Origin: Elusimicrobium sp. An273
GTDB lineage: Bacteria > Elusimicrobiota > Elusimicrobia > Elusimicrobiales > Elusimicrobiaceae
Assembly: GCF_002159705.1 (NCBI RefSeq)
Contig: NZ_NFJD01000001.1
Coordinates: forward strand, 310,001 to 374,000
DNA: 64,000 nucleotides
Direction: 5' to 3'
This document shows positions 330 to 24,786 of this stretch, piece after piece (position 1 is the first letter of the stretch; every line of letters begins with the position of its first letter). The notes under the pieces are model-generated. The model saw nothing but the letters and a program-made list of their open reading frames with translations, was not told where the DNA came from and ran no database searches. The translations under genes and the position numbers were made by a program.

Positions 330-407
330 GGTGGATGTAGCTCAGCTGGTTAGAGCGCCGGTCTGTGGAACCGGAGGTCGCGGGTTCAAATCTCGTCATC
401 CACCCCA
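330..407 (+). tRNA. tRNA-His (GTG)
   Basis: The acceptor stem GTGGATG (331-337) pairs with CATCCAC (397-403). The D-arm has AGCTCAGCTGGTTAGAGC, the anticodon loop is TCTGTGGAA with anticodon GTG, and the T-loop is GGTTCAAAT. An extra G at 330 faces C at 404, the G-1:C73 pair that identifies tRNA-His, and CCA is encoded at 405-407. The adjacent serine recombinase ORF on the other strand ends inside this gene, which makes the tRNA 3' end a candidate attachment site. Confidence 0.95.
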
Positions 408-2012
408 ATAATTTCTGCTACAACTTTGAGATGCGCCTTGAGCGCTTTTATCGTCGTAGATTTCCAAACAGCCCTTGTTTAAGAGGGCTGTTTTTTTATC
501 CCTTTCCGCCTCTTTGGCGTCTGTTTGAGCCAGGTGTTTGGCTTCATAAATAGCCTTAAACGGCTCTTTATACTCCACCACAATTTGATTGTCTTGCGTA
601 AGCAAGAACTTGGCCCCTACCGCACGCAATAAGTCCGCCTTGCCGTAATTATCCGCTTCCCGGTAGCACTTTTTAAGCCCGGACAGCATAGCCAGCCCCT
701 GCACAGCCCGCTGGGCCCCTTCGGCACTTCTCGTACAGCGGGAGAGTTCACCCTCAATACGTTCTCGTTCTTCCTGTAATTGGCGGTTTTTGGCCTGATA
801 GGCCGCATCGGTTATTTTACGGTCCAAATACATATCCAGCAAGGCCTCTATACGGCCATTTACGCGCTCCAGTTCCTTTTGCAATATTTGCTTAGTACCT
901 GCATTAATCTGGTTTGCCCGTAAACCTTTCTGTTTAAGCCCCTTACAAAGCACCTCTACCACTTCTTTGGGCAGTTCAATGTCTTGTATGGTATCTGCCA
1001 ATTGTTCAGCCAAGCGGGCTTCCGTCAAATACCCGCTCTTTTTATGGTCTTTATTGTAATGCGCACACCGATAATACAAATACTTATGCTTGGCTTTGGC
1101 CCCCAATATATAATGCCCGCAATGTTCGCAGGTGATTAAGCGGTTAAAGGGATAATTGTGCCGTGTATCATAGCGGTGAGCCTTAGCGGCCAGGGAGTCT
1201 TGGGTTTTATCCCATACGGCTTTGCTAACAAGTGGCGTATGCGTCCCTTGGTAAATCTTTTTGCCCCACTTAAACACACCGTAATAAAAGGGAGAATGAA
1301 GCATTTTGGAGATACTTTTTAACGAGACTCGGTTCCCCCTGCTCTTGGTTCTAAGCCCTTTACCGTAAAAGATTTCTTCCAACTCTTCCAAAGAATACTT
1401 ACCTGTAGAGGCATATTCAAACAGTTCCGTCACCAACGGGGCATTAACCGGGTCCGCTTCGATAATGGACTCTTTCTCTTTCGTAGTTACGTTTATATAC
1501 CCCAGCGGCGCATTGCCCGGATAAATGCCCTGTTCGGCTTTTTCCACCATACCCATACGGGTTTTATAGGCAATGTCGTTAGATAACTTTTTGGAAGCCG
1601 CGACTTCCACATCCATCATAAATTCCTTATTGGAATCCAGCGTTTGGTCATTTAACAACTGGTTGGTTCGGGAAAAATGAATACTTTTGTGGTATTCACG
1701 GATTAAACGGATTACCCGTATTTTGTCGGCATCGTTACGGGTCATACGATCCACCACGTCAAATATCACGTGTTTTACGCTGTCATTACGCTTTACAAAG
1801 TCCAGCATAGCGCTAAACTCCTTGCGTTCTTTCTTGCCCCAGGCAGATTCCTGTACTTTCCACATTTTTACTATCTGCAAGTTGTTACGCTGAGCATACG
1901 AACGGGCCAATTTCTCCTGTGCGTCCAGGGAGTATCCGTCTTCCTGCTTAATGCTGGAAACACGCAAAAAGATGACGGCTTTTTCTTGAAATTGATTTTC
2001 CTTATTTAACAT
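396..2012 (-). CDS. Large serine recombinase (resolvase/integrase family)
   Basis: About 538 residues from the ATG at 2012, chosen because AAGGAAG lies 7 bp upstream; the frame extends further 5' without a ribosome site. The N-terminal resolvase domain has FLRVSS (nucleophile Ser19) followed by the GYSLDAQ pattern. A recombinase domain follows, then a zinc ribbon (CEHCGHY ... YYRCAHY) and a long charged coiled coil typical of large serine integrases and Tn4451-type transposases. It would cut and religate DNA at att sites. The start overlaps the HTH gene by 11 bp, indicating coupling. Oddly, its last codons run across a rho-independent hairpin and into the 3' part of tRNA-His, where the stop codon lies. 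The C-terminus therefore looks acquired at the integration junction. Confidence 0.85.
   Translation of the reverse strand: MLNKENQFQEKAVIFLRVSSIKQEDGYSLDAQEKLARSYAQRNNLQIVKMWKVQESAWGKKERKEFSAMLDFVKRNDSVKHVIFDVVDRMTRNDADKIRVIRLIREYHKSIHFSRTNQLLNDQTLDSNKEFMMDVEVAASKKLSNDIAYKTRMGMVEKAEQGIYPGNAPLGYINVTTKEKESIIEADPVNAPLVTELFEYASTGKYSLEELEEIFYGKGLRTKSRGNRVSLKSISKMLHSPFYYGVFKWGKKIYQGTHTPLVSKAVWDKTQDSLAAKAHRYDTRHNYPFNRLITCEHCGHYILGAKAKHKYLYYRCAHYNKDHKKSGYLTEARLAEQLADTIQDIELPKEVVEVLCKGLKQKGLRANQINAGTKQILQKELERVNGRIEALLDMYLDRKITDAAYQAKNRQLQEERERIEGELSRCTRSAEGAQRAVQGLAMLSGLKKCYREADNYGKADLLRAVGAKFLLTQDNQIVVEYKEPFKAIYEAKHLAQTDAKEAERDKKTALLNKGCLEIYDDKSAQGASQSCSRNYWGG
466..497 (+). terminator. Rho-independent terminator after tRNA-His
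   Basis: AACAGCCCT and AGGGCTGTT form a stem followed by a run of seven T. It lies about 60 bp past the tRNA and inside the last codons of the recombinase ORF on the other strand. Confidence 0.7.
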
Positions 2013-2196
2013 ACTGCACTTCCTTATCTTGTAAAAGTTGTTTAATCTGATATACCTGTAATTTTTGGGGTCTGGCGTGGCCATTTAACCACCTGTTGAC
2101 CGATACAAAGGATACGCCCAATTTACGGGCTAAATCCTGCTGTGTAATACGATGTTTCAATCTGTATTCTTCTAGTTGAATGATTATATTATCCAT
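2002..2196 (-). CDS. Small Xre/Cro-type HTH regulator (copy 1)
   Basis: A 64-residue protein that is nearly all one helix-turn-helix. TQQDLARKLGVS is helices 2-3 start and VSVNRWLNGHARPQ is the recognition region. It closely resembles the HTH protein at 13,299-13,484, sharing YRLK, LGVS, WLNGH, RPQKLQ and YQI. Its 3' end overlaps the recombinase start, so the two are probably cotranscribed. It is a plausible binder of the GTATA-N4-TATAC palindromes found upstream of both HTH modules (inferred from position and palindrome form only). Confidence 0.75.
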   Translation of the reverse strand: MDNIIIQLEEYRLKHRITQQDLARKLGVSFVSVNRWLNGHARPQKLQVYQIKQLLQDKEVQYVK

Positions 2197-13509: not shown

Positions 13510-14586
13510 TTAGTAATCAATTATTTCTTTGGTCCTCATATCCACCCGAATAGGCTTAAAATCATTGATCGTCCGTTTGATTTTTCTAATTGTCTGGTCC
13601 CGCCTAGGCTTAAAATATGCGGCTAATTTCTCTTGTTTATTCTTTGCGGCGCTGTACTGCATATATTGCTTTTTCCCTCCAGCGTATCTCTCTTCAATAG
13701 GGTTAAACAGTTCCTTAACGGTATTGGCTCCCAACTTTTTTTCTAGATTTTCCAATCCTTTGTATATGAGAACATTGCTAATGGAGACTCCGGCTCTTCT
13801 GGCTTCTTTTATCTGCCTTAGTTCTGTTTCTTTGGAACACCCAGCAGGGGGTAAATTGTTTAGCACCTCATTAGAGAAGCTTACCAGCAACTCCCTGGCT
13901 AATTTACTATCCCACACATTCCGTAATGTAAACGTTCCACTACATTGCTTAAACTTGGATAAATTTGCCTTTACGGAAGGGCTATTATAAAAAGTGACTT
14001 CATATCTAAGCACTTGCTTCCCTTGAGCTAGCAACTTGCAATAGATTTCTTTGTTTTCCTTGTTGTATAGACTCTTTCCCACTATTTCCTTGGTTGTTTT
14101 GTCATAAAAAGCGATGTCTCTGTTGTCCAGGCTTATACCCACTTTATACCCGTCTCTTCTATCTTTTCTATAGTGATGAAATTCAAGCGCATTATATCCT
14201 TTAGTTAAACCCTTCCCAAACCGCTTGAACAAGGCGGTCATAGAAGTAGTTATAGGCAAAATAATGTTTTTCCCATACTCCAAATAATAAATCTGTGCGT
14301 TATATATTGCTTCTTTGGGCACATCTACGCCGTTTCTAGTACATTCGCATTGAATAGCTGTCACTAACTCATCCAAGTCCGAATCCGTGGCTTCCGCCAG
14401 GTTATTGCCAAATAAACATCTTGGTGCGGCTACATCAAATACAACCTGTTGTTTTTTGCTGTGATAAGACACCACAGGTTTATTATGGGGATTCTTAATT
14501 CTCTGGGCTTTCAAGGCCTCTATCGCCCCAGGCCACAATTCTTTTACATTTTTTGGTTCAATACCACCTTTTATTCGATCTATCAT
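13510..14586 (-). CDS. Replication-initiator-like protein (phage/plasmid Rep)
   Basis: 358 residues. The central region (FHHYRKDRRDGYKVGI ... IAFYDKTTKEI ... LRYEVTFYN) recalls phage and plasmid rolling-circle initiators of the phage CRI type, in which the HYR-like and LR-E-V strands build the core. The C-terminus is Lys/Arg-rich. I cannot point to certain catalytic Tyr/His residues, so the family call is tentative. It is preceded by three palindromic repeats (14,654-14,895) and followed at once by an HTH gene. That is the layout of a self-regulated replication module. GAGGAG is present but about 12 bp from the ATG. Confidence 0.45.
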   Translation of the reverse strand: MIDRIKGGIEPKNVKELWPGAIEALKAQRIKNPHNKPVVSYHSKKQQVVFDVAAPRCLFGNNLAEATDSDLDELVTAIQCECTRNGVDVPKEAIYNAQIYYLEYGKNIILPITTSMTALFKRFGKGLTKGYNALEFHHYRKDRRDGYKVGISLDNRDIAFYDKTTKEIVGKSLYNKENKEIYCKLLAQGKQVLRYEVTFYNSPSVKANLSKFKQCSGTFTLRNVWDSKLARELLVSFSNEVLNNLPPAGCSKETELRQIKEARRAGVSISNVLIYKGLENLEKKLGANTVKELFNPIEERYAGGKKQYMQYSAAKNKQEKLAAYFKPRRDQTIRKIKRTINDFKPIRVDMRTKEIIDY

Positions 14587-15615: not shown

Positions 15616-17364
15616 TTAACAACATCCACTCATCCAGACAAGAAGGAAAATTACACCTACAATAGTAAATATCCAAGTAAAAATATATCCCAAACTATCT
15701 AAATTCTTTTCCGGCCCGAAATCAAACTGAGGACTTTGCTTCGCTCTTTCCTTTGTCATACCAAATGCTCGACTAAGTTTGGCTGCCCCCTTTTTAAAAG
15801 CCTCATGAATCATATTATCGATGATATGAGTATTGTCATCTTCTTGATATGAGAATGATACTTGCCAGGCTTTGTCATTTTTATTAGCAATCACGAAGAA
15901 ACCATTTTGCGAAAATATTACCACTTCATTCCAAGAGAAAAATTGTTTTTCTGTTGGAGTATAAAAATGGGTTTTTGCTAATAAGACTTTATCATCATAA
16001 ATCACACCATACAGATTACCTCCCAAAGCCAGTTTAGATATCATCGCCAGAAAAATTCTCCACCCAACAGCCCGATATAAACAATTTACAAATTTGTTCC
16101 AGTTCCCATTCTTATAATCCAACCATGTAATGGTTTCAAATCCATTCTTTTCTGTTCCAAAATGGACAAGCGTATCCGTCCCTGTATAAATTCCATTCGT
16201 ATATTTTTTCGTCACACCATAACGGATACTACTAATCTCTTCTAATTTATAATGCCGTGATTTACTAACCGTAATTCCAGTGGGAGAAATATCTAATTTA
16301 TGTCCCCACCCCCATTGAGAAACAGAACAAGAGATTCCCTTTTCCCATTCTTTTTGGTCTTCTTGTATTTCTTTTAAATCTTGCAAATCGGCAGAAACTC
16401 TCTCCTCTACAGAGGGGATCTCTATAAATAGTTCTTGAACCTTCTTCATTAATTTTTCGGAAAGTTCTTCTTTTTTTGCTTTATTTAACAAATCTATTGC
16501 AAGACCACGAGCCACATAAGCAATATCTTTACTTCCTTGGTGTTCCAAGCCACGCTGTTTCATACTTAATTGTATAGGGCGTGCCATCTCATCAAAAACG
16601 GATAATTCTCTGATAAACTCTTCTACGGCTTCGTCTACAGATGAAGATGTTAGATTACCAGATAACTTCTTGTTAATTGCGCTAGCAATTTTCTGTATTT
16701 TATCACTCTGATCTAGAACATAAGGCTGCACCTTGATGGCATAACTCTTATCAATCAAAGCATCAACCAATGTAAGTCTCTTCTCTTGTTTGAGGCATCT
16801 TTCCATAAGTAATAGCATGCTACTCGTTAAATCTTTTATAGATAATTTATCGAGCAGATATTGTATTTGCTCTATACAATAATTTTTATGGACTTCAAGG
16901 GCATGTCCGACAATTGAAGACGATGAAATGGCAGGTATTTTGGCGACATCTCTTTCTTCATTCAAAATAGTCGTCAAATTATCCACATTTATATCTTCAT
17001 ATTTAGTCGAAACAGCAATCATCAACTCAACAACTAGTTTGGGTTGTAAGTTATCCCAATAATTCACCATAGAAACCAGAACATTTAGGGCTGGTAGCGG
17101 CGGCAATGTCCCAATAAAGTTCAAATCAGTATTTTTATTTGCCAAGAATTGCATAACTTCTTGACATTTATTTTTACTAAGCCCAGGGAGCCACGCAATT
17201 TCTGCATTAATGCGTTTACTAGGTGTGGTCAACATTAATTTAGCATCCGAAACAAACCCTGAATCTAGCGACAAAATCTTCTCTTTGGCAATCTCCAAGA
17301 TCTGTTTGCGGTTATCTCGTGTGCTTACCCCAAACACATTAAAAGGGTTTTCAAATAAGTTCAT
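15616..17364 (-). CDS. Membrane-anchored J-domain-like protein of the Hsp70/AAA operon
   Basis: 582 residues. The N-terminus NPFNVFGVSTRD followed by paired helices (residues 6-60, ending KRINAEIAWLPG) resembles a J-domain start, but the HPD tripeptide that stimulates Hsp70 is absent. A long helical middle (90-345) leads to two beta-rich segments (about 345-415 and 445-510) that look like PH-type modules. A single transmembrane helix (about 557-578) ends the protein. The start overlaps the AAA stop codon (ATGA), so translation is coupled. It is the last gene of the operon. I infer it tethers the chaperone pair to the membrane or a substrate; the fold assignments are by pattern only. Confidence 0.6.
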   Translation of the reverse strand: MNLFENPFNVFGVSTRDNRKQILEIAKEKILSLDSGFVSDAKLMLTTPSKRINAEIAWLPGLSKNKCQEVMQFLANKNTDLNFIGTLPPLPALNVLVSMVNYWDNLQPKLVVELMIAVSTKYEDINVDNLTTILNEERDVAKIPAISSSSIVGHALEVHKNYCIEQIQYLLDKLSIKDLTSSMLLLMERCLKQEKRLTLVDALIDKSYAIKVQPYVLDQSDKIQKIASAINKKLSGNLTSSSVDEAVEEFIRELSVFDEMARPIQLSMKQRGLEHQGSKDIAYVARGLAIDLLNKAKKEELSEKLMKKVQELFIEIPSVEERVSADLQDLKEIQEDQKEWEKGISCSVSQWGWGHKLDISPTGITVSKSRHYKLEEISSIRYGVTKKYTNGIYTGTDTLVHFGTEKNGFETITWLDYKNGNWNKFVNCLYRAVGWRIFLAMISKLALGGNLYGVIYDDKVLLAKTHFYTPTEKQFFSWNEVVIFSQNGFFVIANKNDKAWQVSFSYQEDDNTHIIDNMIHEAFKKGAAKLSRAFGMTKERAKQSPQFDFGPEKNLDSLGYIFTWIFTIVGVIFLLVWMSGCC

Positions 17365-18737
17365 GGCCTAAATCCTATTGTCCGTTTATTGTTCTCATAT
17401 AAAAAGTGGCCGCTGTGGAGAGCTTCATTAAGTTCTTGTTGTGTAATCTGCTTTTTCCCTTTAAAAGCTGTTAAACGGGCAGCTTCTTTAATAACAAAGG
17501 CCACATCTGAACGAGATTTACCAATCAAGGCAGATATGATCTCTCCCGCTTGGATGTTTTGATCAACAGGCAATTTCTCGAATGCAGATCGAAACATATT
17601 TTCGATATCTTTTGCATCAGGCATTTTAACCTCAATCTTATGGTCAAAACGACCTGTTCGCAAAATAGCTGGATCTATTTTTTCTAATAAATTAGTGATT
17701 CCAATCACTAAGACTTTATGATTAGAAGCTTCGGGAATAAGCCGCAGAAATTCTCCTATTTCCTCAATTTTATATTCCTGGGCTCCATCGCGGTTTGATA
17801 AATATGCCTCCATTTCATCAATAACAAGTATTGAGGGGGCAGCTGAACAAGCTTTCTCGAAAACTTCTGATATCTTTTTGCTCGTTTGATGAATATAGGG
17901 GCTTCCCACACTGCTTGAATCAACAGAAAAAACCGGCCAATCCAAAAAAGTAGCTAATTGCTCTACTGCAAAAGTTTTACCTGTCCCTGGGGCTCCATAC
18001 AGAACTATAGGAGAAGGGAAAGATATTCCCAGCGGTTCATATTTCTCCGGATGGAATGCAATATCAATCACATTTTCATAAAAAAATTGTTCTAAATAGG
18101 TAGCACCTGGCAAACTAAAACAATCCAAAAGGTGATTTTTATGACTTTCCGTATCTGTAGGATCTCTTTGCAAGGTTTTAGCAATACCCACCCCTGCAAC
18201 TTGAGCAATTTCATGCAAATCTTCTCTTGATAAATACGGAGTCAAGTTTTGCAAACGGCGAATCGCTTTTATAGATACTGGAACTCCTCCTGTTAGGCAA
18301 GTCCCTAACAAAAGGCCATCATCTGAATTATCTATGGTTTCAGCAAGAGGAAGCAAACGTGCATATTGTTCGACATATATTGAATTATCAAGAGGAATAT
18401 CAGGAACAAGTTTGCGAGTTTCTCGCAAAGAATTTGCAAAGGCCAATGCCTCCGTTTTATCTGCAATGGCAACATCATGATTGGTTGGTCTCAATACATA
18501 TTTATCTGAAGACACAATAAACTGATAGTTTTTGCCGCCAAAGGAAACACTCCGCCATACTGATATACCCAATAATCCTAAGTTTGCCCATTTTTGGGCT
18601 AAATCAGTAACCACTACAAGCAAATTGCGTCCATCACCTAATTTGTATATTTGCCAGTTAGGGCCCGCAAAAACAAGACGGGATATTGAAATATCAGAAT
18701 TAAGCAAATATCTTTTGGGAAACCAAGGAACAAACAT
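17361..18737 (-). CDS. AAA ATPase (classical AAA) paired with Hsp70
   Basis: 458 residues: a non-recognised N-terminal domain (1-200) and one AAA module. The AAA module has Walker A GAPGTGKT (248-255), Walker B ILVIDE (303-308), a sensor-1 ITN (347-349) and RTGRFD (360-365), the arginine-finger motif seen in FtsH, Cdc48 and proteasomal ATPases. A C-terminal helical lid follows. It should form a hexamer that remodels or unfolds proteins. There is no protease domain. It starts 5 bp after the Hsp70 gene and overlaps the J-like gene by 4 bp. Its substrate is unknown. Confidence 0.85.
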   Translation of the reverse strand: MFVPWFPKRYLLNSDISISRLVFAGPNWQIYKLGDGRNLLVVVTDLAQKWANLGLLGISVWRSVSFGGKNYQFIVSSDKYVLRPTNHDVAIADKTEALAFANSLRETRKLVPDIPLDNSIYVEQYARLLPLAETIDNSDDGLLLGTCLTGGVPVSIKAIRRLQNLTPYLSREDLHEIAQVAGVGIAKTLQRDPTDTESHKNHLLDCFSLPGATYLEQFFYENVIDIAFHPEKYEPLGISFPSPIVLYGAPGTGKTFAVEQLATFLDWPVFSVDSSSVGSPYIHQTSKKISEVFEKACSAAPSILVIDEMEAYLSNRDGAQEYKIEEIGEFLRLIPEASNHKVLVIGITNLLEKIDPAILRTGRFDHKIEVKMPDAKDIENMFRSAFEKLPVDQNIQAGEIISALIGKSRSDVAFVIKEAARLTAFKGKKQITQQELNEALHSGHFLYENNKRTIGFRP

Positions 18738-18742
18738 AAATA

Positions 18743-21238
18743 TTATCCTCGTACTATATTCGTTATATCCGACTCTTCCATGATACTACTTCCACCTTGC
18801 CGGATATCCTCCAACTCAAAGACAATTTGGCGCAGTTGTTGTATCTGATCCATCTCTATAGCTTCCTGTCCTTTATGGGCTAATTCTTGGAATTTAACCT
18901 TATCTATAAATAAAAAAGGAGTCGAAATTAGACTTTTAAATCTAGTTACAACAAACCAGTCTCTCTTCCATAACATAGAAAATATCTTAGTTCTAATTTC
19001 AAACATATAGTCCTCAAACTCTTGTGTATCCCTTTGGAGCATACGTTGGGCACTTGCCACAAGATTATCGAAAGAGGATTTTTCTAGAGGGGATACATCC
19101 TTTTGGAAGCAGGTGTTAAAAAGATCAATCGCCTTATCCAATTCTATTTTTCTTATTTCATACAGATGTTTCTTACGAATAGAAGCAAGTTCTCTTTTTG
19201 CCCGTAAAACTTTCTCTTCAGCTTCTTTCGCTTTTTCTGGATCTACTAATCCCGCAGGCAAATTAGACGTTTCTTCCAAGGTATTTCTGATACCATCTAG
19301 TTCGGGGTCTTCAATATGGGCAGCCATTTCATCTGCTCTTTCTTTAGTACTTTTTGCATCAAAAATAATGGTTTGAGGAAGTTCTGAATAATCTTTTTGT
19401 CCTTCCTGACGAGAATAAAAATTTTTAGCAGAATTAAAAGAGCTTCTAATGCTAGGAATAGAAATCTCCAACCGGATATTTCCATCATCCGACATTTGAT
19501 AGTTTACATCGATATCCGCTCCTGCATAAATGACGCCTTCATCAAAATCAGTACCGGAAATTTTCATCACGCCTACTAGACGGTTGTCGGTAATTGGCAT
19601 AGAAATATCTCCCTCCCAAATTTTGAAATTTAATGCCGAAGGATCTCCGGCTTTTAGCGTAGAAGCTGCTTTAAAATGTTTTATTCCTTTTTTAGGAAGC
19701 ATATCCCCCGAGTGGACTAAATAATCTAAAACAGAGGAGCCCCCCACTTTATCCAACACCTCAATTCCAACAGAATAAGAAGCGGGGATTGAGTCAACAG
19801 TAGCCGCTGTTCGGGTTATTGTAATTTTATCTATTTCACACGGAATATTTTGTCCATGTTCATTAAACAAAAATATCTTGAAATTATTTTCTCCCTGTTT
19901 GGACAATAACAGTTCGACCATATTACCTTCTTTGACTTTTACTCTTCCAGAGGACCAACCACTTTCAACAGAATCAATCTGTAACTCATAATTTTCATTT
20001 AAAGAAGCCGAATGCATAATAAGTTTAGTTTTGATGTCGGGCGTACGAGCGATGTAATCAAATTGAAGGTTTACATCTTCCTGCACTTCTAGGGTTTCTT
20101 TGACATTTTTACGAGCATGTTCTTGAGAAGTCCAGTCTATCGATTCAGCGAAAAGAGCGGCTCCTTCAGCAACAGCTGTCATGGGATTCACATCTGTATT
20201 GGCTGGAATACCTAAAGCAGACGATATTTTTTCTCTCATAGGTCTGTAACAGGTTGGCCCGCCTACAAAAACGATTCGGGCGACATCATCCGGCTGCAAT
20301 CCTGCTTTTTCTAGAGTTTCATACACTGCTTTAACACTTTCTTCTACCTGTGCTGCAACCAACTCATCATAGCGTTCTCTAGTAAGGATAATATTAAGAT
20401 AGATATCCTTACCCTCTTGGTCTTGCATCCGCATTTCTTCTTCCATTACATTAATGATAGCCTGGTCATCGCTAGACAATTTGATTTTAGCAGACTCAGC
20501 AGCATAAGCAGACATTCTTACTAAACGCCCGTATGCTGTATCATTCCAAAAAGTATCAGGCAATTTAAAGTTCTGTAACAACCATGGATATACGACATAT
20601 TCCAAAATAGCACGGTCAAAATCTCTACCACCACACATAGCTATTCCACCATGACTCAACAAACTAACATGTCCATTTATGCTTTCTGCTACGGCTATAT
20701 CTAAAGTCCCTCCACCAAGATCATACACAATAAAGATACCATCTTCGGTACGAGCTTTCATGACACTCATAATGGCAGCAACAGGCTCCTGCATGAGGGC
20801 GACTTTTCCTATTCCCGCCATATTAGCAGCTTGCAGTGTAGCTTCTTTTTGCATTTGATTAAATGCGGCTGGAACAGTAATCACAGTACCTCCGTCTAGA
20901 GAATCTCTCAGTTCTTCAGGAAGATAATTAAACAATACTTTTAATATTTCCGCCGAACACTCTTCCGGAGACATAGGATGTCCTAAATTAGGAATATTAA
21001 TTGGAGTATTTGTTCCCATGAATCTTTTAAATCTGACGGCCACATTTTCAGGGTCATTTAAAAGCATTTTATATGCCTCTTGCCCTAAATATTTCACTCC
21101 GCGTTTATTGATATAAATAGCTGATGGAGTTACTTCCGATAATTCTCGAGGACTTTGATAAATATGAGTTTTTTCTCCATCATATGAACAAATAGCACTA
21201 TTTGTAGTCCCTAAATCAATCCCTATAAAATGTTTCAT
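18743..21238 (-). CDS. Divergent Hsp70-family chaperone
   Basis: 831 residues, longer than DnaK (about 640). The nucleotide-binding domain is intact: GIDLGTTNS (6-14), VPAAFNQMQKEAT (122-134), VYDLGGGTLDIA (171-182) and IVFVGGPT (322-329). After residue 370 the sequence diverges from DnaK. It has a beta-rich stretch to about 620 and a long helical, Glu/Lys-rich end. The usual DnaK linker DVTPLS is not seen. It lies between a GrpE-like gene (2 bp upstream) and the AAA gene (5 bp downstream), a dedicated operon rather than the housekeeping dnaK locus. The client may be specific to the system. Confidence 0.85.
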   Translation of the reverse strand: MKHFIGIDLGTTNSAICSYDGEKTHIYQSPRELSEVTPSAIYINKRGVKYLGQEAYKMLLNDPENVAVRFKRFMGTNTPINIPNLGHPMSPEECSAEILKVLFNYLPEELRDSLDGGTVITVPAAFNQMQKEATLQAANMAGIGKVALMQEPVAAIMSVMKARTEDGIFIVYDLGGGTLDIAVAESINGHVSLLSHGGIAMCGGRDFDRAILEYVVYPWLLQNFKLPDTFWNDTAYGRLVRMSAYAAESAKIKLSSDDQAIINVMEEEMRMQDQEGKDIYLNIILTRERYDELVAAQVEESVKAVYETLEKAGLQPDDVARIVFVGGPTCYRPMREKISSALGIPANTDVNPMTAVAEGAALFAESIDWTSQEHARKNVKETLEVQEDVNLQFDYIARTPDIKTKLIMHSASLNENYELQIDSVESGWSSGRVKVKEGNMVELLLSKQGENNFKIFLFNEHGQNIPCEIDKITITRTAATVDSIPASYSVGIEVLDKVGGSSVLDYLVHSGDMLPKKGIKHFKAASTLKAGDPSALNFKIWEGDISMPITDNRLVGVMKISGTDFDEGVIYAGADIDVNYQMSDDGNIRLEISIPSIRSSFNSAKNFYSRQEGQKDYSELPQTIIFDAKSTKERADEMAAHIEDPELDGIRNTLEETSNLPAGLVDPEKAKEAEEKVLRAKRELASIRKKHLYEIRKIELDKAIDLFNTCFQKDVSPLEKSSFDNLVASAQRMLQRDTQEFEDYMFEIRTKIFSMLWKRDWFVVTRFKSLISTPFLFIDKVKFQELAHKGQEAIEMDQIQQLRQIVFELEDIRQGGSSIMEESDITNIVRG

Positions 21239-21240
21239 AG

Positions 21241-21627
21241 TTATTTCTTCCCTAATATAGCGGCTCCTCTCCTCACAACTTTTCCCTCACACAAAATAAC
21301 AGGCTCTAATAATTGTTCAATATATAAATCATCTTCAGCATTGAAACTACTAATATTAATAGGATTCAATGGCATTCCTGCGTCAAAAGGCATGCCGGCT
21401 TGAAAATTTGCGAAAGATATTCCTTTCCTTTGGAAGAAATCAGAGGCTTTCTTATTGAACCAATCAAGTTGTCCAACATACTTGCGTTGTTCATCCAAAT
21501 CAATTTTAGAGAGCATTTTGTTTGTTAATTTAGCCAAACGCCATACTTCTACAGCAAATTGAATGTCTCCTTCATCTGCTATTGTAGAAAGTGAAAGTCG
21601 CAAGTTTTCGTGGCCATTTGGAGTCAT
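21241..21627 (-). CDS. Short GrpE-like nucleotide-exchange factor
   Basis: 128 residues. The C-terminal half fits the GrpE beta-wing: FFQRKGISF, then MPFDAGMP, and an end EPVILCEGKVVRRGAAILG resembling the GrpE pattern of a strand, Gly, and RPA-x-V. The N-terminal coiled coil of GrpE is much shortened to one helical stretch (residues 8-60). Such a protein would release ADP from the neighbouring Hsp70. It is first in the operon, ends 2 bp before the Hsp70 gene, and has no ribosome site; a TATAAT lies 6 bp before the ATG. The family call is by pattern and would need a profile search. Confidence 0.55.
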   Translation of the reverse strand: MTPNGHENLRLSLSTIADEGDIQFAVEVWRLAKLTNKMLSKIDLDEQRKYVGQLDWFNKKASDFFQRKGISFANFQAGMPFDAGMPLNPINISSFNAEDDLYIEQLLEPVILCEGKVVRRGAAILGKK

Positions 21628-22153
21628 AAAATGATTATAGTAAAAATTAACTATATCTACATATGTTTACTCTGCCATTATTGACAAAGCGGCATCAGGA
21701 GTATGACAAACTAAATGGCCGCTTATCTTTGATGAGGTTTGCGCTAAACTCTTAGACTTCACCAACGTGCAATGGTGACTTATCTGCAAAGATATACAAT
21801 TTGTTGTTTTTATTAACAACTTGTAAAGTTGTTGAAAATAAAAATTTCTCTACATATTCTTGTACAATTATATATTCACACTCTCTCCTGAATCACCATA
21901 AACCACAAAAGTTGTAGCAGACGGGTCCAAAATGCCATTTTTAAGCCAAATTTAAGGACTCAAGACACCTTGCAAAAAGTTATAAGAAGGGCCTTTTTGA
22001 CCGTTTTTAAGGGTTCGTTCTCGTCGGGAAAGCAAAATATGCCAATAAATGACATTGGTGGAGAAAAAGTTGTAAAAATATTCTAAAAGCGAACCCCATA
22101 TTTACTCCCATCGAACTTTGGATGGGATTTTTTAATGTCTTTTTAGCTTGTTT
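21628..22153. other. Divergent control region of the chaperone operon
   Basis: No gene is supported. TATAAT (minus strand, 21,634-21,639) lies 6 bp before the GrpE-like ATG, without a good -35. AACAACTT-GTA-AAGTTGTT (21,815-21,833) is a perfect 8-bp inverted repeat that could bind a regulator. The region is AT-rich. Confidence 0.4.
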
Positions 22154-22180
22154 ATCCCCGGCTATCGTCGGGGATTTTTT
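22154..22180 (+). terminator. Rho-independent terminator
   Basis: ATCCCCG (22,154-22,160) pairs with CGGGGAT (22,169-22,175) and is followed by six T. No plus-strand gene precedes it within the visible stretch, so it may belong to a lost gene or a small transcript. Confidence 0.6.
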
Positions 22181-23518: not shown

Positions 23519-23911
23519 TTATTTATTAATTTTTTCCCTTTTTTCACTCAGCAGCTGGCTCACGCGGGCGGGGCTCATGCCAAGGGCCGCGGCACATTCC
23601 CGCTGGGAAAGGCTATTTACCCTCATATATTCCCGTATCTGCAAGGCAAGCGCCTTATAATATGTCTTTTTGTCTATTTTGGGTGTTTGGGGGTTGGTGT
23701 TTACCCGTTTGGTGCGCCGCACATAATTGGGTTTTACCGCCGCGTGGAATGCAAAACTTACCCCGTTCGGGAGCAAAACCTCTATATTTTCCCCTTGGTA
23801 TGCGTAAGTAATCCGCCGCACCACTTGGGCCAGCGTTTTAGTTTGTTGCTCTAATTTCTGCTGTTCCAGTTCCGCTCTATTGATTAACCCGCATTCTGCC
23901 TGCTGCTTCAA
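23519..23911 (-). CDS. HTH-ended small protein, probably the tail of a serine recombinase
   Basis: 130 residues from a TTG start; the frame stays open to about 23,930 with no ATG. A beta-hairpin (VRRITYAYQGENIEVLLPNG) leads through a basic linker to a C-terminal HTH (LSQRECAAALGMSPARVSQL). This order is seen at the end of some large serine recombinases. No catalytic domain is present. The open 5' end and the abutting truncated NagZ gene on the same strand suggest a deletion that joined both. It could instead be a free-standing regulator. Confidence 0.45.
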   Translation of the reverse strand: MKQQAECGLINRAELEQQKLEQQTKTLAQVVRRITYAYQGENIEVLLPNGVSFAFHAAVKPNYVRRTKRVNTNPQTPKIDKKTYYKALALQIREYMRVNSLSQRECAAALGMSPARVSQLLSEKREKINK

Positions 23912-23944
23912 AACCGTCTCATTAAACTTCGGCTAAAACACTGT

Positions 23945-24664
23945 TCAGACAAGAAGTAACTTGCTTTGAATTTCAAGCGCAGGAAGTTCCACGGTTTGCT
24001 TTTCATACTGCGCCGAGCCGCCGGGTGCATGCTTATAACAAGGAATTACGCCCCCGTCGGCCAACCCGCGGGCGTAAGCGTCGGCTAGAGCTTGCACAAG
24101 GGCCGGCTGATCTGAAAAATAACGGCTTTTGTGCGGGGCGTTTGGCCCGGTGGGCCGTTGTTCCGCCAAAGGCGCGAAAACGACATCTATCGTCAAATTT
24201 TTAAGAAATTTCCCTGTCCTTACGCCATATTGATAAGCGGCTTCAATCGCTTGCGGCAAATTTGTTTCCGCTTGTTTTCCAAACACTTCCGGCGCGGGCG
24301 CCTGAAAAGACGGATCGTACTGTTTAATACGGTTAACCGTGCCCCCTTCTTGGTCTATAAAAAACACAAAATCCGCCCGATGCAGCACTTCCGCTAATTC
24401 CTGCCGCAGGCGGCGCGGATCCAAATGCGGATGTGCCGGAATCCCCAAAAGAAACCCGTACGGATTGGCCTGCTGTAAAAACGACTTGTCTGCCGGCGTC
24501 AGCGGGTAACGGTTAATCAGCAAAATAACCGGGCGTACCGGTGCCGGTGCTTCCAGCCGCCAGAGCATCACTCCCCATGCCGCCAATCCCAATAAGACAA
24601 GCCCTATCACAAAAAGAAACGACCGCGGTTTGTTTAAATACGTTTCTAAAAAATCTCTTGCCAT
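23945..24664 (-). CDS. 3'-truncated NagZ-like glycoside hydrolase family 3 protein
   Basis: 239 residues from the ATG at 24,664 (GGAG 7 bp upstream). A transmembrane helix (about 15-35) is followed by a GH3 barrel with FFIDQEGGTVNRIK, the NagZ substrate-loop motif, and KHAPGG, the counterpart of KHFPGHG. NagZ removes N-acetylglucosamine from peptidoglycan fragments. The family normally runs on for about 80 or more residues after this motif. Here it stops after VELPALEIQSK. The break coincides with the island edge, so the gene is probably inactivated. Confidence 0.65.
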   Translation of the reverse strand: MARDFLETYLNKPRSFLFVIGLVLLGLAAWGVMLWRLEAPAPVRPVILLINRYPLTPADKSFLQQANPYGFLLGIPAHPHLDPRRLRQELAEVLHRADFVFFIDQEGGTVNRIKQYDPSFQAPAPEVFGKQAETNLPQAIEAAYQYGVRTGKFLKNLTIDVVFAPLAEQRPTGPNAPHKSRYFSDQPALVQALADAYARGLADGGVIPCYKHAPGGSAQYEKQTVELPALEIQSKLLLV

Positions 24665-24786
24665 TACAGGCTCCGTTATAAAACTATACACAATTTAAAG
24701 GGTTTCAAAAAGAAAAGGCTCTCTAATATAATTTTATCTTTATGAAAGTGACTTTTTCTTTTTATAATGTCCTAAGGAGGATTCTT

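Follow-up and report, generated by a model that had tools for sequence, protein, structure and literature searches.

The nearest described counterparts of the operon reported here are the GAP1-N2 systems, GTPase-centered predicted conflict systems of mostly actinobacteria and firmicutes that include HSP70, GrpE, and DnaJ-FNIII proteins (Kaur et al. 2020, PMC7159879). We analyzed a stretch of 64,000 nucleotides of Elusimicrobium sp. An273 (contig NZ_NFJD01000001.1), here called the window, in which a four-gene operon encodes a GrpE-like protein, an Hsp70, an AAA ATPase, and a J-like protein. A dedicated HSP70, GrpE, and J protein and a predicted role in conflict are common to the operon and the GAP1-N2 systems (PMC7159879), but no GTPase was identified in the window operon by Pfam, and it has an AAA ATPase and a membrane/peptidoglycan tether instead. 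In type III CoCoNuT systems, CnuD is an Hsp70-like protein with degenerate ATPase motifs that is fused to, or encoded beside, McrBC parts (PMC11090510). The Hsp70 described here is likewise found in a predicted defense context, whereas the window operon lacks a McrB-like GTPase and CnuC/McrC and its Hsp70 ATPase motifs are intact. The Zorya proteins ZorA and ZorB form an anti-phage complex that is anchored in the inner membrane and peptidoglycan and has cytosolic parts (PMC11890865). A similar anchoring with cytosolic parts is predicted for our system, and Zorya genes adjoin the operon in Polaromonas; however, there is no ion-driven motor and no nuclease, and the cytosolic part would be a chaperone machine. 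The PADLOC model nearest to the AAA protein is IetA of the IetAS system (5e-30), but the operon has no subtilisin-like IetS, and the AAA protein scores 101 with the NCBIfam IetA-type model, for which the cut-off is 510. A link between J-protein chaperones and phage sensing is also known from bNACHT25, which senses phage through the host DnaJ (PMC12169576), whereas the chaperones studied here are themselves a mobile module.

The canonical DnaK-DnaJ-GrpE set with ClpB resembles the operon in having an Hsp70, a GrpE exchange factor, and a protease-free AAA ring. The operon differs in that its AAA protein is a classical single-ring enzyme and not ClpB, its Hsp70 has an insertion of ~120 residues, its J-like protein lacks the HPD motif and has helical, PH-like, and transmembrane (TM) parts, and all four genes form one mobile operon that coexists with an intact canonical set. 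The mobile heat-resistance islands of enterobacteria (LHR/tLST) have closely linked small heat-shock proteins; no such close linkage was seen here (39 genomes).

The first-pass annotation of this DNA, made from the sequence alone, linked these four genes to no named defense system, and we found none either. In PADLOC 2.0, the Hsp70 and the GrpE-like protein had no match and the J-like protein had one chance-level match (E 0.042); neither NCBIfam nor PADLOC 2.0 has a dedicated model for any of these three proteins. No description of the four-gene set was found in the open-access full-text literature (subscription papers and bioRxiv being outside the scope), and the main text of papers on Tn7 cargo and on Escherichia coli defense islands contains neither DnaK nor chaperones. 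The conserved accessory module is apparently previously undescribed. Its four proteins very probably work together as a chaperone/unfoldase machine. We further propose, with a confidence slightly above even, that this is a dedicated, membrane-held Hsp70-AAA remodeling machine of mobile defense islands that acts on invader proteins or on proteins altered by infection.

A conserved four-gene operon

The four open reading frames (ORFs) are all on the minus strand, in the order GrpE-like protein, Hsp70, AAA ATPase, J-like protein. The gaps between the first three are 2 bp and 5 bp, and the genes of the AAA and J-like proteins overlap by 4 bp, so that the coordinates and the tight spacing given in the first-pass annotation are confirmed. 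A promoter scan gave a signal at chance level. The features of the operon are as follows.

21241 to 21627, minus strand: GrpE-like, putative nucleotide-exchange factor, 128 amino acids (aa); two short helices and a C-terminal beta domain
18743 to 21238, minus strand: specialized Hsp70, 831 aa; Pfam HSP70
19775 to 20131, minus strand: inserted domain of the Hsp70, residues 370 to 488, between the ATPase and substrate-binding domains
19460 to 19774, minus strand: substrate-binding beta-domain of the Hsp70, about residues 489 to 593
17361 to 18737, minus strand: AAA ATPase of the classical single-ring type, 458 aa; without a protease domain
15616 to 17364, minus strand: J-like tether protein of 582 aa, with a degenerate J-like domain followed by a long helical domain, a PH-like domain, a second beta domain, and a C-terminal TM helix
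17185 to 17364, minus strand: degenerate J-like domain, residues 1 to 60; HPD absent
15622 to 15690, minus strand: predicted TM helix of the J-like protein, residues 559 to 581

When 84,980 species genomes were scanned with the C-terminal half of the Hsp70, 91 relatives were obtained, of which 80 were kept. The same four-gene order was observed in 59 of the 69 nonredundant loci with enough flanking sequence, with median gaps of -4 bp between the GrpE-like and Hsp70 genes and +3 bp between the Hsp70 and AAA genes. The pairwise distances of the four proteins are correlated across 55 loci (Mantel r, 0.78 to 0.92; permutation p of 0.001 for each protein against Hsp70). Based on the gene order and these correlations, a chance cluster was rejected, and the four genes are considered to be a genuine conserved module that is co-inherited.

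Hsp70, GrpE-like protein, and AAA ATPase

The 831-aa protein matches Pfam HSP70 over residues 5 to 367 (2.9e-58), and the seven nucleotide-site residues tested are invariant in 83/83 relatives. Residues ~489 to 593 align with the substrate-binding domain of DnaK (hhalign, 93%, E 3.3e-7). The preceding insertion of ~120 residues (370 to 488) has no DnaK counterpart (0.2% against the DnaK substrate-binding region), and the C-terminal stretch (640 to 831) aligns only weakly with DnaK in the helical-lid region (0.7%). When the profile of the C-terminal half alone was compared with the PDB by sequence, no convincing relative was identified. The protein was annotated at first as an Hsp70 with an unrelated C-terminal half. 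Judged by its sequence, it is a true Hsp70, but the second part of that description was rejected on the basis of the hhalign comparisons, which revealed an insertion and a substrate-binding beta-domain in its place.

The Pfam scan of the window operon gave no family match for the GrpE-like protein or the J-like protein. The AlphaFold2 (AF2) model of the GrpE-like protein (67 sequences) has a predicted local distance difference test score (pLDDT) of 89.8. Its top 12 Foldseek matches are all GrpE, after which the list falls away, and VIA gave Z scores of 8.8 to 10.4 for six GrpE entries versus 5.9 for the next row. The alignment with 22 canonical GrpE proteins (hhalign, 90%, E 1.4e-6) covers the beta-wing; the profile had no convincing relative in the PDB by sequence. 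The predicted fold upholds the reading of this 128-aa protein as a short GrpE-like factor, with the helix and C-terminal beta-wing fold present, and nucleotide exchange on the partner Hsp70 is its putative function.

The 458-aa protein has a single AAA module of the classical type (Pfam AAA, 1.2e-30), as annotated. The Walker A K/T, Walker B D/E, and sensor N residues and two arginine-finger residues are conserved in 72/72 members, and the pore-loop position is Y/F-I-H, also in 72/72. No protease is encoded in the window operon according to Pfam. The two-ring AAA architecture with a middle domain that is typical of ClpB is absent, and no ClpB model was among the NCBIfam matches of the window operon proteins.

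J-like protein and predicted membrane tether

The first 60 residues of the J-like protein contain helices at 7 to 11, 19 to 29, 35 to 46, and 48 to 56 in the AF2 model (pLDDT 93.5), which is the order of a J domain. Alignment with 25 J domains gave 50% and E 1.6e-4 (hhalign), with the register kept at both ends. The HPD motif was found in 0/71 members; D34 is retained in 65/71. Residues 346 to 436 have a PH/FERM-F3-like match (VIA, Z up to 8.9). The Foldseek and VIA lists for the whole model consist of generic helical bundles and PH/FERM folds; they are filled by other parts of the protein and contain no J-domain row, which does not exclude such a domain.

The hydropathy of the protein is 2.42 at residue 558, and a C-terminal TM helix is predicted. 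In 64/77 loci, a TM segment is predicted either within the J-like protein or in a gene situated just between or after the operon genes. In the window the J-like protein itself carries the TM helix, and elsewhere a separate TM/peptidoglycan-binding partner protein is usual. The partners have a common N-terminal segment like KGFAGLSSLVSDVD, followed by a TM helix, and PG_binding_1 in those scanned. The N-terminal segment KGFxGLSSLVSDVD was seen in the partners of L005 (18938 to 20383), L008 (18487 to 19338), L016 (15315 to 16775), and about 30 more loci, and it could serve to dock the Hsp70 or the J-like protein. The simplest reading is that the machine is cytosolic and attached to both membrane and wall, in a topology that is predicted.

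The initial description as a membrane-anchored J-like protein is in line with the predicted TM helix and with the helix order of the model; the HPD motif is absent. The parts of the proposed complete chaperone cycle plus an unfoldase are present, but HPD is lost in every J-like member. This loss would imply that the ATPase is stimulated in another way, that the host DnaJ assists, or that the J-like protein is only a tether.

Accessory status and distribution

Besides the operon, the host genome has its own canonical dnaK, grpE, and dnaJ, and the possibility that the operon is the only chaperone set of the host was rejected. Among the carriers, separate canonical genes were identified for dnaK in 38/38, grpE in 21/22, and dnaJ in 17/17. 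Because all carriers checked have a canonical dnaK elsewhere in the genome, and grpE and dnaJ are likewise separate in nearly all, the module is regarded as accessory. The idea of a specialized accessory chaperone system on mobile elements, which the first-pass annotation had tied to a conserved gene order and a separate dnaK-grpE-dnaJ locus, is supported on both counts. The 1.5-Mb host genome has no ClpB above the cut-off and no HSP20 match.

The carriers include serine-recombinase islands, Tn7-like transposons, and conjugative plasmids, and relatives on plasmids have an Hsp70 that is about 50% identical and an unchanged gene order. In the Hsp70 tree, 14 phyla are intermixed, and copies from Acidobacteriota, Verrucomicrobiota, and Alphaproteobacteria are near-zero apart. 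Some of these copies are from contigs of metagenome-assembled genomes (MAGs), where misbinning could have occurred; the claim of horizontal transfer is therefore based on the overall pattern, together with the copies carried by plasmids and transposons. Sequence comparison on this basis indicates that the module has spread horizontally over at least 14 phyla. Its occurrence is sporadic: it was found in 0/60 relatives, in one other of 198 genomes in a sample of the phylum, and as a complete operon in 1/5,426 E. coli genomes. E. coli NH-21 (L191, 12008 to 15679) has a decaying copy between IS1 copies, in which a shortened AAA gene, the TM partner, and the J-like gene are all that is left.

The genes are arranged differently in four distant plasmid loci. 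In L009 (7828 to 12514), L010 (7091 to 12529), and L012 (5501 to 10481), the J-like gene is upstream of the GrpE-like and Hsp70 genes and there is no AAA gene; in L010, the J-like, TM, and peptidoglycan-binding parts are fused in one protein. The Haliscomenobacter locus L011 (5345 to 12870) encodes a related Hsp70, an AAA protein fused to a kinase-like domain, and a TerB protein, with BREX genes adjoining.

A viral scan with the AAA protein alone gave no match. When a viral collection was scanned with the C-terminal half of the Hsp70, three loci were obtained, and because one of them is laid out like the Serratia locus, there is no evidence of a phage-borne origin. The matches in phage records were only partial and DnaK-like. 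Lak megaphages (Prevotella phage Lak, e.g., MK250024.1, 393252 to 395904) encode an Hsp70-like protein in which the ATPase-domain match is split in two pieces.

Defense-gene neighborhood

Several copies of the operon are close to known defense genes: (i) in Polaromonas, the operon is located between Zorya and BREX-2 genes; (ii) in Haliscomenobacter, BREX genes are nearby; (iii) in Sinorhizobium, GajA/GajB (Gabija) and a type IIG system are nearby; (iv) in E. coli HeN100, it shares a tRNA-Phe island with RADAR rdrB and with a remnant of dptF; and (v) in Vibrio, DrmC-like and MkoA-like proteins are nearby. The neighbor count proposed with the first-pass annotation bears this out: at E <= 1e-70, PADLOC matched 17 differently named components among 223 neighbors (9 and 8 in two sets) versus 1 among 222 control proteins, the count being one of distinct component names and not per locus, and the controls not being matched for mobile islands. 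The controls, also in two sets, come from 19 regions elsewhere in these genomes, and their sole match is Drt2 in one set. The excess is significant (Fisher p of 6e-5, or 2e-4 with two components discounted). In agreement with this, 3/38 other carriers (G062, G086, and G097) have an N6_Mtase no more than about 13 kb from the operon. A BLASTP panel of 25 defense proteins and five Tns proteins, which is too narrow, gave a defense match in 3/77 loci and 0 in controls. An anti-phage or foreign-protein role is favored on the basis of the defense-gene neighbors and the islands. Because the module is mobile across distant bacteria and has an excess of anti-virus genes as neighbors, it may be a new defense that attacks protein and not DNA.

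The island in Elusimicrobium sp. An273

The GC content is about 34 to 42% over roughly 2 to 23.5 kb of the window and mostly 50 to 58% beyond. The island starts at tRNA-His (331 to 407) and a serine recombinase; its other end is near 23.5 kb, with GC climbing to ~50% and above.

396 to 2084, minus strand: large serine recombinase with Resolvase, Recombinase, and Zn ribbon domains; its 3' end is inside tRNA-His

The recombinase is probably the integrase of the island, with a function in mobility and outside the machine. The island also encodes HsdR, HsdS, and HsdM (type I restriction), a GmrSD_N protein, and a HEPN_LA2681 protein, in agreement with the AT-rich island with restriction and HEPN genes noted in the initial annotation. 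No direct repeats of at least 12 bp common to both island ends were found. In two congeners, recombinase-related sequences (40% and 24% identical) are located beside the same tRNA-His (L192, 9735 to 11326, and L193, 8463 to 10108), and the left-flank genes at tRNA-His are up to about 92 to 94% identical. From these comparisons, tRNA-His is a predicted integration hotspot in this genus. At the other end (23519 to 24691, minus strand), a NagZ-like ORF (248 aa, the first half of NagZ) terminates at 23945 and is followed by an in-frame helix-turn-helix (HTH) fragment (130 aa). This junction may be an old island border, because the relative of the HTH fragment in L193 adjoins recombinase remnants and tRNA-His. 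Directly downstream of the operon (13510 to 14586, minus strand) is a gene for a 358-aa protein with no Pfam family, a putative replication initiator by appearance, and upstream (22106 to 22175) there is a tandem pair of terminator-like stem-loops in plus-strand orientation.

Alternative explanations

The chance that the module is immune in function is, in our judgment, about even or marginally better, and several observations weigh against such a role. Some of the PADLOC component names could be one protein, and the neighbors include annotated plasmid loci. Some loci have no recognizable defense neighbor, and two plasmid loci are in Tn7-like transposons near mercury or cadmium resistance genes. 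The AAA gene is missing in L078, L085, L086, and L089, so the AAA protein is not always required, and ATPase stimulation by the J-like protein is not to be assumed because HPD is lost in all members. The two Tn7-like copies near metal resistance genes suit a module for stress tolerance, that is, an extra envelope-linked disaggregase for heat, oxidants, metals, or envelope damage, similar in role to the heat-resistance islands of enterobacteria. The protein set is indeed that of a disaggregase, and an added one could help a host without a full ClpB match and HSP20. However, ClpB was above the cut-off in 19/23 genomes checked; no HSP20 gene was found within 20 kb of the operon in 39 genomes, the nearest being 21 kb away on one Cupriavidus plasmid; and no CIRCE site was found in the window, whereas a CIRCE-like site directly precedes hrcA in the canonical hrcA-grpE-dnaK locus of the host. 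As the neighbors are also enriched in defense genes, protection under general stress is less favored, and we consider it rather unlikely.

DnaK/DnaJ/GrpE and ClpX remodel RepA of plasmid P1 and proteins of phage Mu. In the same way, the module could maintain its mobile element by remodeling the replication initiator, recombinase, or transposase of the element, or protect the element during transfer. The serine-recombinase islands, Tn7-like transposons, and conjugative plasmids on which it rides are consistent with this, as is the 358-aa gene without a Pfam family that adjoins the window operon. Nevertheless, no common client is visible, because the elements that carry the module are unrelated and differ in their replication and integration proteins, and the copy in E. 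coli HeN100 is in a chromosomal island whose element genes are fragmentary; this explanation seems improbable to us. The least probable account, to which we give very little credence, is that of an Hsp70 that is not a chaperone but a nucleotide or RNA sensor, as proposed for CnuD of CoCoNuT, with the AAA ring as the effector. Predicted restriction systems that include Hsp70-like proteins are known (PMC11090510), but the ATPase motifs of CnuD are degenerate (PMC11090510), whereas the nucleotide-site residues of the Hsp70 studied here are invariant. A dedicated GrpE-like factor is beside the Hsp70 in nearly all loci, and the window operon has no McrB-like GTPase, which argues further against a sensor.

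Proposed mechanism and implications

In the defense-related remodeling machine that we prefer, the J-like protein would be anchored at the inner membrane by its own TM helix (in the window) or by a TM/peptidoglycan-binding partner (elsewhere). It would position the Hsp70 at the envelope and may pick clients via its helical and PH-like domains. The Hsp70, driven by ATP, would grip the client through its substrate-binding domain and the inserted domain, and the GrpE-like factor would reset the Hsp70 nucleotide. The AAA ring, with its conserved aromatic pore loop and no protease, would thread and unfold the client, which presupposes contacts between the proteins and a handover between the AAA ring and the Hsp70 in one direction or the other. 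The likeliest clients would be phage or invader proteins at or crossing the membrane, or host complexes altered by infection, with an anti-phage outcome. In a bolder reading, which we rate as somewhat less likely than not, the module would represent an undescribed class of immune system, in which invader proteins are forcibly unfolded or extracted at the envelope by a GrpE-Hsp70-AAA set that a degenerate J protein tethers to the membrane and cell wall.

The module is compact and occurs in culturable Proteobacteria, one E. coli chromosome among them, which makes it directly testable. That HPD is lost in all members while the Hsp70 ATPase site is intact raises the question of how an Hsp70 is driven without a normal J protein. 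If the proposed reading is true, the module would amount to a natural Hsp70-disaggregase set, distinct from housekeeping proteostasis, that has an exchange factor, a tether, and a client range of its own. Most known bacterial defenses target nucleic acids, nucleotides, or membranes; this one would be a mobile immune system that acts on protein conformation and is built of chaperone parts only.

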